This document shows, in pieces, positions 9,256-17,965 of a stretch of DNA of 64,000 bases. Origin of the DNA: Marinifilaceae bacterium (GTDB lineage: Bacteria; Bacteroidota; Bacteroidia; Bacteroidales; Marinifilaceae); NCBI GenBank assembly GCA_017936285.1, contig JAGBFU010000054.1, forward strand, positions 1 to 64,000, read 5' to 3'. Position numbers and translations under genes: made by a program. The notes beneath the pieces are model-generated. The model worked only from the letters and a program-made list of their open reading frames with translations. It had not been told where the DNA came from and did not search any database. Numbering within the stretch: position 1 is the stretch's first letter; the number at the start of each line of letters is the position of its first letter.

Positions 9256-9771
9256 TTACTTAGGATACTCCTGGGTGATGAATGCTCTGTAGTCAGGGTC
9301 ACGATCTCCGGTGGTTTTGTATAGCTCTCCATCGGCCTTGTAGTATAGAACACGCTCTCTCTCAGAATTTCTTTGTTCAACATCCACAATATAGATTGTT
9401 GCATATACCGGACGGGTAATTACGTCAACATCGTCGGCATACCAATCTTTGTACTCTCCGCTCTCAAACGAATTTTGGATCTCCTCGGGAAGTTGATTGT
9501 ATGCAATGTCGCTTACTGTTAGTTTCCAGTCGCCATCATTGTCAATCCATACCTCTTTCTCGCTTCTATCCTCGGCATTGTAAAAGTCTGCCACATAGTA
9601 GCCGTGAACCAACTCCCACTCTACAAAGTTAGCGTCAGGGAATAACTCTGTTAATGTATTCTTTACAGGTGTAGGAACTTTACTTGTCTTTACATCTTTG
9701 TCGTCATCCGAACAAGCAACTAAACTTGCTAACGGTAACAACAGTGCCAATAGTCTTAAATAGTTTTTCAT
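9256..9771 (-). CDS. PepSY-like (DUF2874) lipoprotein
   Basis: A 171-aa exported lipoprotein: signal peptide and lipobox LVAC (Cys about 20), then an acidic linker and PepSY-like repeats (PTPVKNTLTELFPDANFVEW... and LPEEIQNSFES...). Proteins of this family sit in the Bacteroidota periplasm or at the outer membrane and often neighbour two-component systems; their molecular role is not established. It follows a second PepSY-like gene by 47 bp, downstream of a histidine kinase/response regulator pair on the same strand. Ligand or target unknown. Confidence 0.82.
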   Translation of the reverse strand: MKNYLRLLALLLPLASLVACSDDDKDVKTSKVPTPVKNTLTELFPDANFVEWELVHGYYVADFYNAEDRSEKEVWIDNDGDWKLTVSDIAYNQLPEEIQNSFESGEYKDWYADDVDVITRPVYATIYIVDVEQRNSERERVLYYKADGELYKTTGDRDPDYRAFITQEYPK

Positions 9772-13635: not shown

Positions 13636-13999
13636 CTATAAAGGAGAATTTTTTAATCCAATGTTGGATATAAATTTTAATATGCCATTGACAACCTCTA
13701 TTTTATGCAATGTTCTGGACATTGATATCCCTTCATTTGTTGATCCCCATTCATCACCTAAAATAATTTCAAGCGAGGATTCAGAGTGCTTTGTAAATGA
13801 TTCAACGTCGAACCTTTGATTAAAGACAATATTGATGGATGATTCACTAACCAATACAATAGTGAGCAATCCCATGGTACCATCGCCATATCCTTGTGTT
13901 CTAAAGAATAATAATTTTGAGCTATTTGATAGTTCCACTTCTAAGAAGTTGTATGAAATTTTGTATTTATCGCGCCAGGGAAGCCATGGGTCTTGATTG
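13636..13999 (-). pseudogene. C-terminal remnant of a second Sel1-type family protein
   Basis: About 120 codons are open after the stop of the 14006-14743 gene but have no ATG (only a GTG at 13938). The translation resembles the C-terminus of the 682-aa protein at 15917-17965: SSKLLFFRTQ, LTIVLV, INIVFNQRFD and EVVNGILKFI here align in order with DSRLIFLRSR, CTIILL, ATIVFNQLID and ESKDGILYHF there. The N-terminal four fifths, including the Sel1 repeats, are missing. I read it as a decayed copy left after duplication and deletion; a short expressed protein from GTG is less likely. Confidence 0.6.
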
Positions 14000-14005
14000 T
14001 TATTC

Positions 14006-14743
14006 TCAGTATGTGATGGAGCCTATCTTTGTTTCTGTGCCATTCCAGATGTCAGTACCATTAGTTCCCCAATATGATATGGGATAGTCTTGTGGATAGT
14101 ATTCTGTTTGTGACGATTTTACAAATTTTCCAGTTGTTGCATCAATCGTGTAAACAATATCTTTGCGTTGTGCATTTATAACGTCAGTTGATTTTATCAT
14201 AGGATATACCCATGGCGCAGTGCGAGTAGGAGTTAATTGATAAATAGTCAACTTTCCATATTCCAGACAATATTGTTTTGGAATGACAAATATTTGTTCT
14301 GATTCAATAAATTCACACTCTGCAATCTCAAGGAAATCAAGAATATCTCCATTATCATTGCATGATACTAATATTCTGCGAAAATCGTCTGCACAACGGA
14401 CGGTGAAGATAAGGAGATTGCGACTACTATTTGTTGGGGCTGCTTTGAATTTAATGGATGTAAGGATTTCCATTTGATTATAATCCATTGTTCTTGCTTG
14501 TAAATGTTGCATATCACTATACAAATCTGCGCCAATTATTTGTCCTTCTTGATGGCTAATCTGATATTTTCCTGCAAATGTATAATTGTTTGTATTATTG
14601 GATGGACTTTTGTATAATTTGTATGGATAATTTTCAGATATAGGAAGTTGCTCTATAATCTCTTTTATTGAGTGAGTCCATGCTTGAGAATATACTTGGA
14701 TAGAGCTAAGCACCATAATGCTTGTTATAATAATTCGTTTCAT
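14006..14743 (-). CDS. Secreted protein, paralogue of the 15169-15900 gene
   Basis: A 245-aa protein with a cleavable signal peptide (about 1-19, ending QVYSQA). No known domain is recognised. It aligns over its length with the 243-aa protein at 15169-15900: HSIKEIIEQLPISENYP near the N-terminus, and a C-terminal block of about 50 residues from NAQRKD to ITY that is nearly identical. In that block the motif PQDYPISYWGTNGT and then WNGTETKIG stand out. The middle is much more diverged. Probably periplasmic or surface; role unknown. It is transcribed after a shortened lipoprotein gene. Confidence 0.75.
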   Translation of the reverse strand: MKRIIITSIMVLSSIQVYSQAWTHSIKEIIEQLPISENYPYKLYKSPSNNTNNYTFAGKYQISHQEGQIIGADLYSDMQHLQARTMDYNQMEILTSIKFKAAPTNSSRNLLIFTVRCADDFRRILVSCNDNGDILDFLEIAECEFIESEQIFVIPKQYCLEYGKLTIYQLTPTRTAPWVYPMIKSTDVINAQRKDIVYTIDATTGKFVKSSQTEYYPQDYPISYWGTNGTDIWNGTETKIGSITY

Positions 14744-14811
14744 ATTTATAATTGATTTTTAGTTAATACTTACATGTTTGAGCAGATGTTGTACCATTGA
14801 AATTCCCATAG

Positions 14812-15066
14812 TTAGGGCGTACTTGTGTAATCGTCTCCGCTCTCTTCTGTGATGTTGGGGACATTAAGTGCTGTTGCAAATGTCTCAAAGTACTCCCGAG
14901 CTTCATCAATCGTGAATACCTCTTCTTTGCTTGAGAAGAAGCTATCATTGATAAAGTCACTTGTACATGAGACAATTGAAAACAATAGCACAAATAATCC
15001 GCACAGAATAAAATGCAGTCCCTTTCTACTTTTGATTATTTTTAAAAATGTAGATTTTGACCTCAT
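14812..15066 (-). CDS. Short lipoprotein, probably a truncated N-terminal stub
   Basis: About 84 aa from the ATG at 15066 (another ATG lies at 15075). A strong signal peptide ends in SIVSC, then come an acidic stretch and IDEAREYFETFATAL, a helix often seen just after the lipid anchor of larger Bacteroidota lipoproteins. The frame stops at TAA after GDDYTSTP; after it the same frame is open for only 13 codons. This suggests the N-terminus of a longer, lost lipoprotein, although a small intact lipoprotein cannot be excluded. It has its own promoter (15096-15125). Confidence 0.5.
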   Translation of the reverse strand: MRSKSTFLKIIKSRKGLHFILCGLFVLLFSIVSCTSDFINDSFFSSKEEVFTIDEAREYFETFATALNVPNITEESGDDYTSTP

Positions 15067-15095
15067 ATTGTGCATTTTATACTGTTTATGGTTGT

Positions 15096-15125
15096 CAAAG
15101 TTAGAAAAAAACATTTTAATGCAAA
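15096..15125 (-). promoter_or_regulatory. Promoter of the lipoprotein stub / 14006-14743 gene
   Basis: On the minus strand TTTG (15122-15125), 18 bp, TAACTTTG (15096-15103). It shows that the second copy of the family still has a plausible start of transcription, and it favours the start codons at 15075 or 15066 over the ATG at 15114. Confidence 0.6.
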
Positions 15126-15168
15126 TGTTTTCTCTATTTTTGTTTGTGTATTAGGTACAAATATAATA

Positions 15169-15900
15169 TCAGTATGTGATGGTTCCTATTTTTGTCTCTG
15201 TACCATTCCAAATCTCAGTACCATTAGTTCCCCAATATGATATGGGATAGTCTTGTGGATGGTATGTTGTTTCTGATGTTTTTACAAATTTTCCAGATTC
15301 AACATTTAACTGATATGTAACATCTTTTCGTTGTGCGGTGATTTTGTCCGTTTTTGTCAGTGATTCAAAGATTATTGGGTCTGGAGTTGTTGGACATAGT
15401 TCGTATATGGCAAGTATGCCTTTTCTGTATAATACGTATTGCTTTGTTATAATATTATCTTTCACATTTTTTGAGTATCCACAAACAAAAACTTCAATGG
15501 TGTCGCATAACTGGTTGTCTTTGTATACAGCGAAAATTTCTCTGCACATATCATAACCAATAGAGATTTGAACAGAAAATATATCAGGACATTGATATTG
15601 TGGATTAAATATTGGTCTATACCTGCGTCCTGCAATCACCCAGCACTTAGTATTTTTGTCCTCTATTTTGCCTTGTATATCCAAGAATCGTACAGCTCTA
15701 AGTTTTTCTATATCGTTATTGCTCATCCATCCCCACCTCCAATTGTTATCTTTATTGTTGTTTGCTTTATTTTTAAATTCACAAATGGGATATGATTCTG
15801 TAAGTGGTAACATTTCCCGCAACTCAGAGATTGAGTGTTGTCCTGCAGCATAGTTCCATGTGCATAAACAAATTACTAATATTACTAAGGCCCTTTTCAT
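15169..15900 (-). CDS. Secreted protein, partner of the Sel1-repeat protein
   Basis: A 243-aa protein with signal peptide (MKRALVILVICLCTWNYAAG). The ATG at 15900 is chosen because it begins the signal peptide and matches the length of its paralogue; the frame extends to 15957 inside the upstream gene. There is no recognised domain. The conserved features shared with the 14006-14743 protein are ISELREMLPLTESYP at the N-terminus and the long C-terminal block from TAQRKDV to ITY. It starts 16 bp after the 682-aa Sel1 protein, so the two are likely co-expressed and may act together in the envelope. Confidence 0.75.
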   Translation of the reverse strand: MKRALVILVICLCTWNYAAGQHSISELREMLPLTESYPICEFKNKANNNKDNNWRWGWMSNNDIEKLRAVRFLDIQGKIEDKNTKCWVIAGRRYRPIFNPQYQCPDIFSVQISIGYDMCREIFAVYKDNQLCDTIEVFVCGYSKNVKDNIITKQYVLYRKGILAIYELCPTTPDPIIFESLTKTDKITAQRKDVTYQLNVESGKFVKTSETTYHPQDYPISYWGTNGTEIWNGTETKIGTITY

Positions 15901-15916
15901 AATATCTGCAGTTAGT

Positions 15917-17965
15917 TTATTTTCTAAAATGGTACAATATACCATCTTTTGATTCAATCATGTATTTTCTTCTATTGCTATTGTAGTGAATTTCGAATAC
16001 GCTTCCGGCTCTCTTAGCAGAAACAAAATCAATTAATTGATTAAAAACAATGGTTGCTTTACCATCTTTTAGTAAAATTATGGTACAGGTTTCTAAATTA
16101 TCACGAGAGGGGATTCTACTTCTTAAAAATATTAGGCGAGAATCCTTTGATGGTTGTCCTTGAAAGAACATATAATCACTTGCCAAAGTAGTCGTTTTAA
16201 CTCCATGGATATGGGTCGGCGATGTAATTGTAGTTAAAACGTTATTCTTGTCATCCAGAATATCGACTTTCTGCACAATATTAAGTGAATCCTTTGTCAG
16301 AGTACACCCCATTATTACATATGAATGATTATCAAAATTGATGGTGTCAATATAGACTAATAATGGATTTTTATACAGAGTTTCCTGGGCCGGACTCCAT
16401 GAGAATGAATCTATAAATTTTGAGTTTGTGTGTAGTGAATTCTTGTCAAATATATAGATGGGTTCTACATAATCTCTTCTGCCTGCTCCAATATCGGTCA
16501 ATACCTCTTTTGCTTTCTGGTGGTTTAGTTTTGCAGCCTCCTTCAATAGGGTAACAGCCATCTCTTTGTCGTGTTGTACCCCCTTTGCATAGTAGTAGCA
16601 GTGTCCTAACAGGTACATAGCATCGGGATTGTTTTTGTGCGATGCTAACTGTAAATATCTGACAGCCTTTTTGTAGTCTTGCTCTACACCATATCCTTTG
16701 AGATATGCAAATCCTGCATTATATTGAGCTTCAGTATTACCCTGGTCTGCAGCTTTAATCCACCACTTGATAGCCTGGACTGTGTCCTTTGTAATCTGTG
16801 CCATTTTTACTTGAGAATCAATGTTGCCGCTCTCAGCAATCTTCTTTGTTGCCCAGTTTACAAGTTCATCTCTATTTGAGCAATTCTCCCATAACTCATT
16901 TTTATATCTGTCATCGTATGGTTGATAATACTTGTAATTCAGAGTTCTTCCTGAATTACTATATATGTTCAAGTAGTTAAAGTTATAGCCATAAGTGATA
17001 TTGGCATATAGCTCATTATCAATGATAAAGGCCCCATCTGTATCTCTGTATTGGCATATATGCATTATAAAGTGCTCTTGTCTTGGGCTTGGAAGTCTAT
17101 CATAAAATAGAACCAAGCTTTCAATCTTTGCTAAGCAGAGTAACACTACATTGTCGCAATATTTAATATCGCTAATCATATAAATAGCAGGTTCCTCAAT
17201 AAATTTACGACTAATAAACGCATTTTCGAATTTCAATCCGAATCTATTCATATCCGAGCCATCGATTATGGGGCGATTGTACAATAAATCGGTTTTTATC
17301 AGGGCCCCATTAAAGAGGGTGGGGAATATGCAACGTAATGAGTCCATTAGAATTTGCGATCTTTTGTACTCCTCAGGAAAGTACCTCTTGGCAATGGAAT
17401 CGCATCTTAGAGAGTCAATAACACTATTATTGTATGAAGAGGTATAGTTTAATGTTTTGTATAAATCAGTGGTTCCTGCCTTGTATATCTCTTCATAGTA
17501 TATGTCGTCAATCATCTCTCCGTCATTTTCATAGGCATCTTCCTTATAGTAGTAACTAAGGGGTCTATATCCTTTACATTTGCTCTTCAGATACGTCAAC
17601 TCCTCCTCAAAATATTCAGGATACGCATAGGTTATCGGTTTTACATCGACACGTCTTAGTTCCCAAAACTTCGGAGATAACTTTTTGGTTTTATAATAAT
17701 TTGTGAATGCAGAGGAGTCTATTGGAATATATATCTTTCGGGTTTTCCAATTCTCTTCACACCACTTATCACCGGTGTCATTGTATTTTATAACTGTTAT
17801 ATAACCGGGTAATTCATTTTTAAATTCAGGGCGAGATTCCCTGTCAACAATATATTTGGTTTTAATGTTGTTTGTAGAGGAGGATTTTTCTGTTTGTGCA
17901 TGCAGACTAAAATTGCCTATCAGCAATCCTAAAAATATCAAAATTGTTATTGCCGGTTGTCTCAT
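15917..17965 (-). CDS. Exported Sel1-repeat protein
   Basis: A 682-aa protein with a signal peptide (about 1-23, ending SLHA). The N-terminal about 370 residues are unrecognised. Then come at least two clear Sel1-like repeats: AIKWWIKAADQGNTEAQYNA, then LKGYGVEQDYKKAVRYLQLA and AKGVQHDKEMAVTLLKEAAK (about 395-490). A C-terminal domain of about 150 residues also survives as a remnant at 13636-13999. Sel1 repeats are alpha-solenoid protein-protein scaffolds. First gene of an operon with the 15169-15900 gene; a TAACTTTG box lies upstream (17994-18001). Role unknown. Confidence 0.75.
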   Translation of the reverse strand: MRQPAITILIFLGLLIGNFSLHAQTEKSSSTNNIKTKYIVDRESRPEFKNELPGYITVIKYNDTGDKWCEENWKTRKIYIPIDSSAFTNYYKTKKLSPKFWELRRVDVKPITYAYPEYFEEELTYLKSKCKGYRPLSYYYKEDAYENDGEMIDDIYYEEIYKAGTTDLYKTLNYTSSYNNSVIDSLRCDSIAKRYFPEEYKRSQILMDSLRCIFPTLFNGALIKTDLLYNRPIIDGSDMNRFGLKFENAFISRKFIEEPAIYMISDIKYCDNVVLLCLAKIESLVLFYDRLPSPRQEHFIMHICQYRDTDGAFIIDNELYANITYGYNFNYLNIYSNSGRTLNYKYYQPYDDRYKNELWENCSNRDELVNWATKKIAESGNIDSQVKMAQITKDTVQAIKWWIKAADQGNTEAQYNAGFAYLKGYGVEQDYKKAVRYLQLASHKNNPDAMYLLGHCYYYAKGVQHDKEMAVTLLKEAAKLNHQKAKEVLTDIGAGRRDYVEPIYIFDKNSLHTNSKFIDSFSWSPAQETLYKNPLLVYIDTINFDNHSYVIMGCTLTKDSLNIVQKVDILDDKNNVLTTITSPTHIHGVKTTTLASDYMFFQGQPSKDSRLIFLRSRIPSRDNLETCTIILLKDGKATIVFNQLIDFVSAKRAGSVFEIHYNSNRRKYMIESKDGILYHFRK

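Follow-up and report, generated by a model that had tools for sequence, protein, structure and literature searches.

The window analysed here is the whole stretch of 64,000 nucleotides (64 kb) at positions 1 to 64,000 of contig JAGBFU010000054.1 from a Marinifilaceae bacterium (Bacteroidales; GCA_017936285.1, an assembly of 1.98 Mb that is 82% complete). It contains a cluster of genes and gene remnants which in the direction of transcription on the minus strand comprises a Sel1-repeat protein (A1), a secreted protein of a family named B here (B1), a lipoprotein stub, a second B protein (B2) and the remnant of a further secreted protein (A2). This order had been proposed from the DNA letters alone and was found exactly so. 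The cluster and its parts are located as follows, with lengths in amino acids (aa) where known and with the parts named according to the interpretation developed below.

15917-17965, minus strand: A1, 682 aa; signal peptide, 3 Sel1 repeats (Pfam Sel1, E=1.2e-21)
About 17450-16803, minus strand: hypervariable middle of A1, between the conserved N-terminus and the Sel1 repeats
15920-16465, minus strand: C-terminal A-type immunity-like domain of A1 (aa 501-682)
15169-15900, minus strand: B1, 243 aa from ATG, secreted B-family protein, predicted periplasmic immunity protein
15172-15300, minus strand, limits approximate (alignment codons about 211-240): B2-like C-terminal block of B1, probable gene conversion tract
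14035-15164, minus strand: stretch of 1.13 kb (effector remnant and most of B2) that is absent in the sister species and replaces the first ~95 codons of A2 (blastn against the sister locus L023)
14812-15114, minus strand: N-terminal part of the putative effector remnant (the stub), with the lipobox 'FSIVSC', a lipoprotein signal and the conserved N-terminal module of lipoprotein effectors
14763-14840, minus strand: C-terminal tail of the putative effector remnant, ETITQVRPNYGNFNGTTSAQTCKY-stop, in a frame different from that of the stub
14006-14743, minus strand: B2, 245 aa, secreted B-family protein starting ~20 nucleotides (nt) past the effector tail, predicted orphan immunity protein
13636 to about 14004, minus strand: A2 remnant, the last ~122 codons of a secreted A-type immunity-like protein

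The TTG start at 15957 given for B1 in the list of open reading frames (ORFs) falls within A1, and the ORF of the A2 remnant from GTG covers 13636-13938, its reading frame being open up to about 14004.

B1 and B2 can be aligned end to end with 37% identity (E=6e-45), which agrees with the original prediction, and the secreted family that they form is real and has no model in Pfam or NCBIfam, where searches gave no match for B at E<=1; for the stub and A2 the same libraries gave nothing meaningful. An initial search of 147 relatives gave B-like matches in 12, the weakest of them being doubtful, and a profile search found matches in 11 of 59 genomes of the family and 14 of 393 genomes of the order. 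The AlphaFold model of B2 is mostly beta (predicted local distance difference test score, pLDDT, 85; predicted template modelling score, pTM, 0.82). As it has no Foldseek match in the PDB at E<=0.001 and as its best VIA match, to beta-propeller pieces, has a Z of 5.3 and thus lies at background level, no fold could be assigned to B. Four tandem B genes are located at a contig start in L024:97-4063, where a 295-aa ORF interrupts them and masked sequence stretches lie inside.

In other genomes, several B genes are located directly downstream of genes for proteins ending in a C39/papain-like domain with the motifs DC..C, TDHWIVVTGRGYD, YTYMD and VTQVRPNDG. A scan of one genome for each of 84,980 species, in which the C39-like toxin domain alone was the query, led to 17 Bacteroidota loci, of which L095 is cut by a contig end and 16 are assessable. 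A B-family ORF directly downstream of the C39-like domain is present at 14 of these 16, where the distance reaches about 0.5 kb in L091 and L094, one match is weak (E=5.5e-6) and one gene is broken; when the four loci that seeded the query are left out, the count is 10 of 12, and the Bacteroidota loci without a downstream B are L117 and L119. At the 16 loci outside the Bacteroidota, mostly encoding Myxococcota LysM proteins, no B was found beside the domain. Four to six B copies surround a full effector and the C-terminal remnant of a second one in the Muribaculaceae loci L101 and L102, and orphan toxin cassettes or immunity genes near a full-length toxin are present in L027, L101 and L102. 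The Myxococcota loci L099, L103-L105 and L107-L116 harbor C39-like domains without B, several of them fused to LysM-type N-termini, and these domains may have a housekeeping or other role.

Cys23 and His103 of the C39-like domain are invariant in an alignment of relatives, and the D/E in the 'YTYMD' segment is mostly conserved. Among solved structures, 9jdd is by a wide margin the nearest to the AlphaFold model of the domain (pLDDT 88), with a Foldseek E of 4.4e-13 and a VIA Z of 17.5 (166 residues, root mean square deviation 3.3), and the sequence profile of the domain matches the C-terminal domain (CTD) of BtaeB in this entry with E=1.9e-20. According to its PDB title, 9jdd (as well as 9jg8 and 9jg9) contains the complex of BtaeB CTD and BtaiB, an effector-immunity pair of the type VI secretion system (T6SS) of Bacteroides fragilis, and it has in common with the B loci a C39/papain-like toxin domain and a dedicated immunity protein. 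Among the 50 Foldseek or VIA matches listed for the B2 model, 9jdd does not occur. The C39-like domain may act as a peptidoglycan amidase. It is found on three different carriers, namely a lipoprotein module, a double-glycine (GG) leader (L089, L090) and an RHS core (L133). The lipoprotein module in turn is present in 15 of 59 genomes of the family and carries C-termini that are C39-like, zincin-like, GH108, CHAP-like or JAB-like, including a GH108 muramidase (Pfam 3.7e-23), and most module genes with other C-termini than the C39-like one are followed by a gene for a small exported protein. L027 contains a full lipoprotein-zincin gene with three tandem immunity-like genes, then a stand-alone C39 cassette in which part of the linker of the lipoprotein is repeated almost identically, and then B. 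Judged by their domain composition, the effectors have the anatomy of polymorphic toxins, in which one carrier bears many toxin domains and one toxin domain many carriers. Behind the RHS-core protein with the C39-like C-terminus at L133:923-2439 comes an exported protein of 190 aa that is B-like in pattern (B profile E=0.011) and might represent a distant branch of this family; it matched no PDB chain, and neither did the 143-aa protein downstream of the BtaeB-like gene in L132. An HlyD-like adaptor gene is located downstream of the GG-leader C39 effector and two B genes at L090:3392-4714, which suggests type I export for this variant.

A profile of the lipoprotein N-terminus, built from seven effectors with the sequence of the window excluded and run on all six frames of the 64 kb, has the stub as its sole significant match (E=8e-8; next best 1.1), and the lipoprotein-module profile recovers the stub site in a search of the whole genome as well (E=1.1e-5). 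The tail ETITQVRPNYGNFNGTTSAQTCKY-stop was spotted by eye before a profile of the tails of 12 effectors was applied to the six frames of the window, where 14766-15035 is the sole significant match (E=1.6e-5; next best 6). The two ends of the effector are in the right order and orientation with the tail 20 nt before B2, and the catalytic core between them is missing, with the last ~25 residues being all that is left of the C39-like domain. Since stub and tail flank the missing core and B2 comes next, the effector appears to have lost its catalytic core, with B2 as its orphan immunity gene. No C39-like domain was found in the assembly of the window (G000) or that of the sister species (G001), both of which are incomplete. 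The stub, for which the original prediction had no explanation, can thus be read as the front of a deleted effector gene followed by B2 as the immunity gene. A 66-codon ORF that ends in the effector tail precedes an otherwise orphan B in G006, and its sequence points to an independent event like the loss of the effector core in the window.

The sister species, represented by one congener, G001, with locus L023, has the order A1-B-A2 with a single B, an intact A2 of 227 aa and no stub. The DNA of the window is collinear with it from 18100 to 15165; then 15164-14035 in the window (1.13 kb) stands against 290 bp in G001, which comprise intergenic bases and the first ~95 codons of A2, and the homology resumes inside A2 with 91% DNA identity. 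The A2 remnant is 93% identical to the A2 of G001 over residues 105-227. As the 1.13 kb takes the place of the front of A2, the stub-B2 module would have replaced the beginning of the gene and left the remnant; that it was inserted in the lineage of the window, rather than lost in the sister, is inferred from the intact sister A2. A2 is related to the C-terminal part of A1 (E=9e-7), but the idea that it is a decayed copy of A1 was rejected because the sister A2 is an intact single-domain protein.

The DNA identity of B1 and B2 is about 46% over alignment codons 1-210 and 91% over codons 211-240, where 27 of 30 third positions (90%) are alike, and the identity of B1 to its sister orthologue drops within the same codons from about 87% to 71%. 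It is therefore probable from this pattern that the C-terminal block was exchanged between B1 and B2 through gene conversion, and the near-invariant block alone is no evidence of constraint. The block noticed in the original prediction is thus real, but largely a trace of recombination; functional constraint alone as its cause was rejected, since synonymous sites are alike and the sister orthologue differs there. A1 is a mosaic when its DNA is compared to the sister, with 99% identity at the start, 55-63% at 17402-16803, 99% in the Sel1 repeats and 75-87% in the C-terminal domain. Its middle of about 220 codons is a hypervariable domain between stretches of 99% identity. Synonymous divergence from the sister is 0.60 for A1 and 0.57 for B1 compared to 0.11-0.16 for the flanking genes (about four times higher), and the ratios of nonsynonymous to synonymous divergence (dN/dS) are 0.24 and 0.17, respectively. 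A1 and B1 are under purifying selection, and high synonymous divergence together with low dN/dS makes both look exchanged as well as functionally retained.

A wider family of exported proteins includes A2 over its full length and A1 with its C-terminal domain. The gene of one A-type member, L080:6029-6703, is located immediately behind that of a lipoprotein effector whose C-terminus is CHAP-like, and a second one, located where contig G004:C17 ends and cut by that end, also comes after a lipoprotein with a CHAP-like C-terminus, CHAP-like being a motif reading of a C-terminus without a match in a Pfam search. The third member, in L138, is an apparent orphan beside a weakly ZI-like exported protein, and further homologues stand alone in L197-L200. 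With moderate support from gene order, A-type domains are probably immunity proteins for this second, CHAP-like effector type, which carries another putative amidase domain. Because the A-type domain recurs behind such lipoprotein effectors, the whole cluster is probably an orphan poly-immunity array.

Taken together, we consider the cluster to be an orphan immunity array in which B1 and B2 most likely serve to block, within the periplasm, a toxin domain of the C39/papain-like type, with a probability of roughly 85%. The effectors would be exported lipoproteins that reach neighbouring cells by some route and act in their periplasm, where the exported B would bind and block the C39-like domain. 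A module of a lipoprotein effector and B2 would have recombined between B1 and A2 and thereby removed the front of A2, an internal deletion would then have taken the catalytic core of the effector and left B2 as an orphan, and B1 and B2 would have exchanged their C-terminal block. Cells without the effector could keep B as protection against neighbours. What carries this reading at the level of sequence is the adjacency of B and effectors, the exchange of domains, the two ends of the remnant, the replacement relative to the sister, the conversion tract and the purifying selection on A1 and B1, whereas toxicity, the peptidoglycan target, neutralisation by binding, the delivery route and the role of the A-type domains are what we infer. 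Several points weigh against it. A B profile of 15 proteins matched no PDB chain at E<=1, BtaiB included. Several B loci (L028, L076-L079, L081, L082) have no effector within several kb, and the B genes there could be orphans or could serve another role. The effector could still be encoded elsewhere in the incompletely assembled genome, and the role of the A-type domains is based on two loci, L080 and G004:C17, and a weak similarity.

Among the other explanations, it is unlikely that B specifically inhibits or helps to fold a self-acting cysteine protease of the cell surface that serves nutrition or processing, as staphostatin does for staphopain. A papain fold is predicted indeed, staphopain and staphopain-staphostatin entries are matched with a Z of about 8, and the candidate inhibitor B is exported and encoded directly downstream of the protease-like gene; however, the T6SS effector domain is by far the best match, the C39-like domain rides on carriers of three kinds (RHS, GG leader and lipoprotein), of which the lipoprotein bears further domains of the killing type (the GH108 muramidase and zincins), and B is retained without the protease and in tandem arrays. 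The original prediction itself, that A and B are a two-gene functional unit of a secreted Sel1 protein and its partner which was duplicated and is being reshuffled, is very unlikely as far as the unit and its duplication are concerned, whereas the reshuffling and partial decay of the locus are borne out. A1 and B are indeed neighbours in the window and in the sister species, but outside the genus A1 is matched through its Sel1 repeats only, B elsewhere adjoins C39-like effectors or more B copies, and the sister A2 is a separate protein. Least probable of all is an accessory role of B in exporting the lipoprotein effectors or displaying them on the surface, for which its own export and its position mostly beside an effector could be cited. 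The same lipoprotein N-terminus with different C-termini is followed by different proteins (ZI-type, A-type and others), and the partner therefore follows the toxin domain and not the carrier; moreover, B also follows GG-leader effectors.

The immunity-array reading has counterparts in several known systems. In contrast to BtaeB, most of the effectors described here begin with a lipoprotein module or a GG leader in place of T6SS parts, and B has no detectable sequence relation to BtaiB. SitA toxins are lipoproteins. The myxobacterial SitA/SitI are cell-envelope polymorphic toxins with cognate immunity (PMC5562445), and they are similar by description to the Bacteroidales lipoprotein module but are delivered by TraA-dependent outer membrane exchange. 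Tox-PLC39 is a C39-related papain-like toxin domain with C, H and D residues in Bacteroidetes (Zhang et al., 2012, PMC3482391), and it can be likened to the C39-like domain by its description; the survey table of polymorphic toxins gives no immunity family in the Tox-PLC39 row and one SuFu association elsewhere (PMC3482391). B would be an immunity family for this branch. TANFOR toxins are likewise specific for Bacteroidetes, with swappable C-termini and downstream immunity genes, but have a different N-terminal domain, and the text of PMC7073777 mentions neither lipoproteins nor C39. Orphan immunity arrays in Bacteroidales are already known (PMC12247911, PMC10470768). Like the recombinase-associated and other acquired interbacterial defence clusters (PMC12247911), the cluster consists of co-oriented short genes with orphan immunity lacking the effector; unlike these, it has about five elements of which one is a deleted effector, its immunity proteins are exported and not of the SUKH type, and no recombinase gene was seen beside it among the flanking ORFs as read from the ORF list. 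According to this list the neighbours of the cluster are a phosphotransferase-like gene, a 163-aa gene, a pyrE-like gene and two-component genes.

For B, the A-type domain and the lipoprotein module there is no curated family model in the libraries searched, and a literature search, with subscription papers mostly outside its coverage, found no description of lipoprotein polymorphic toxins of Bacteroidales. As far as these libraries and this literature go, B is a new family, and the A-type domain is new as a candidate for immunity, as is the lipoprotein carrier of Bacteroidales; an earlier description in a subscription paper is possible. An anonymous secreted family of Bacteroidales hereby gains a testable function, and a toxin domain related to that of a B. 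fragilis T6SS effector gains an immunity family. The loci further point to lipid-anchored toxins with exchangeable killing domains that are absent from the curated libraries used. We lean slightly towards the wider view that Bacteroidales carry undescribed, widespread lipoprotein-anchored polymorphic toxins outside the T6SS, whose periplasmic immunity families (B, A-type and ZI-type) accumulate as orphan arrays, with the window containing one such array with a half-deleted effector. Should lipoprotein toxins act between gut Bacteroidales independently of a T6SS, gut metagenomes would hold some antagonism and orphan-immunity content that at present goes unread. In addition, the window would show the origin of an orphan immunity gene: a module is inserted, the effector core is lost, the immunity gene is kept and its copies undergo gene conversion.

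Two further types of genes recur near effectors or B. A membrane protein resembling those of the O-antigen-ligase type, with a C-terminal repeat region, is encoded on the same strand beside many lipoprotein effectors and could be involved in their maturation or delivery. A lipoprotein with a characteristic end motif recurs in several genomes beside effector and B loci.

L025:5774-7591, L187:2098-3837, L188:2991-4484, L189:3013-4479, L195:3001-4479 and L201:2701-4188: O-antigen-ligase-type-like membrane protein
L027:13798-15657, L030:158-2005, L092:3981-6158 and L202:25-1095: lipoprotein with an end motif like 'LYWLxNxTxGxEERxFTxxxGxxxFW'

Elsewhere in the window, and with no relation to the cluster, positions 9256-9771 encode a 171-aa lipoprotein that resembles PepSY-like putative beta-lactamase-inhibitor-like proteins.

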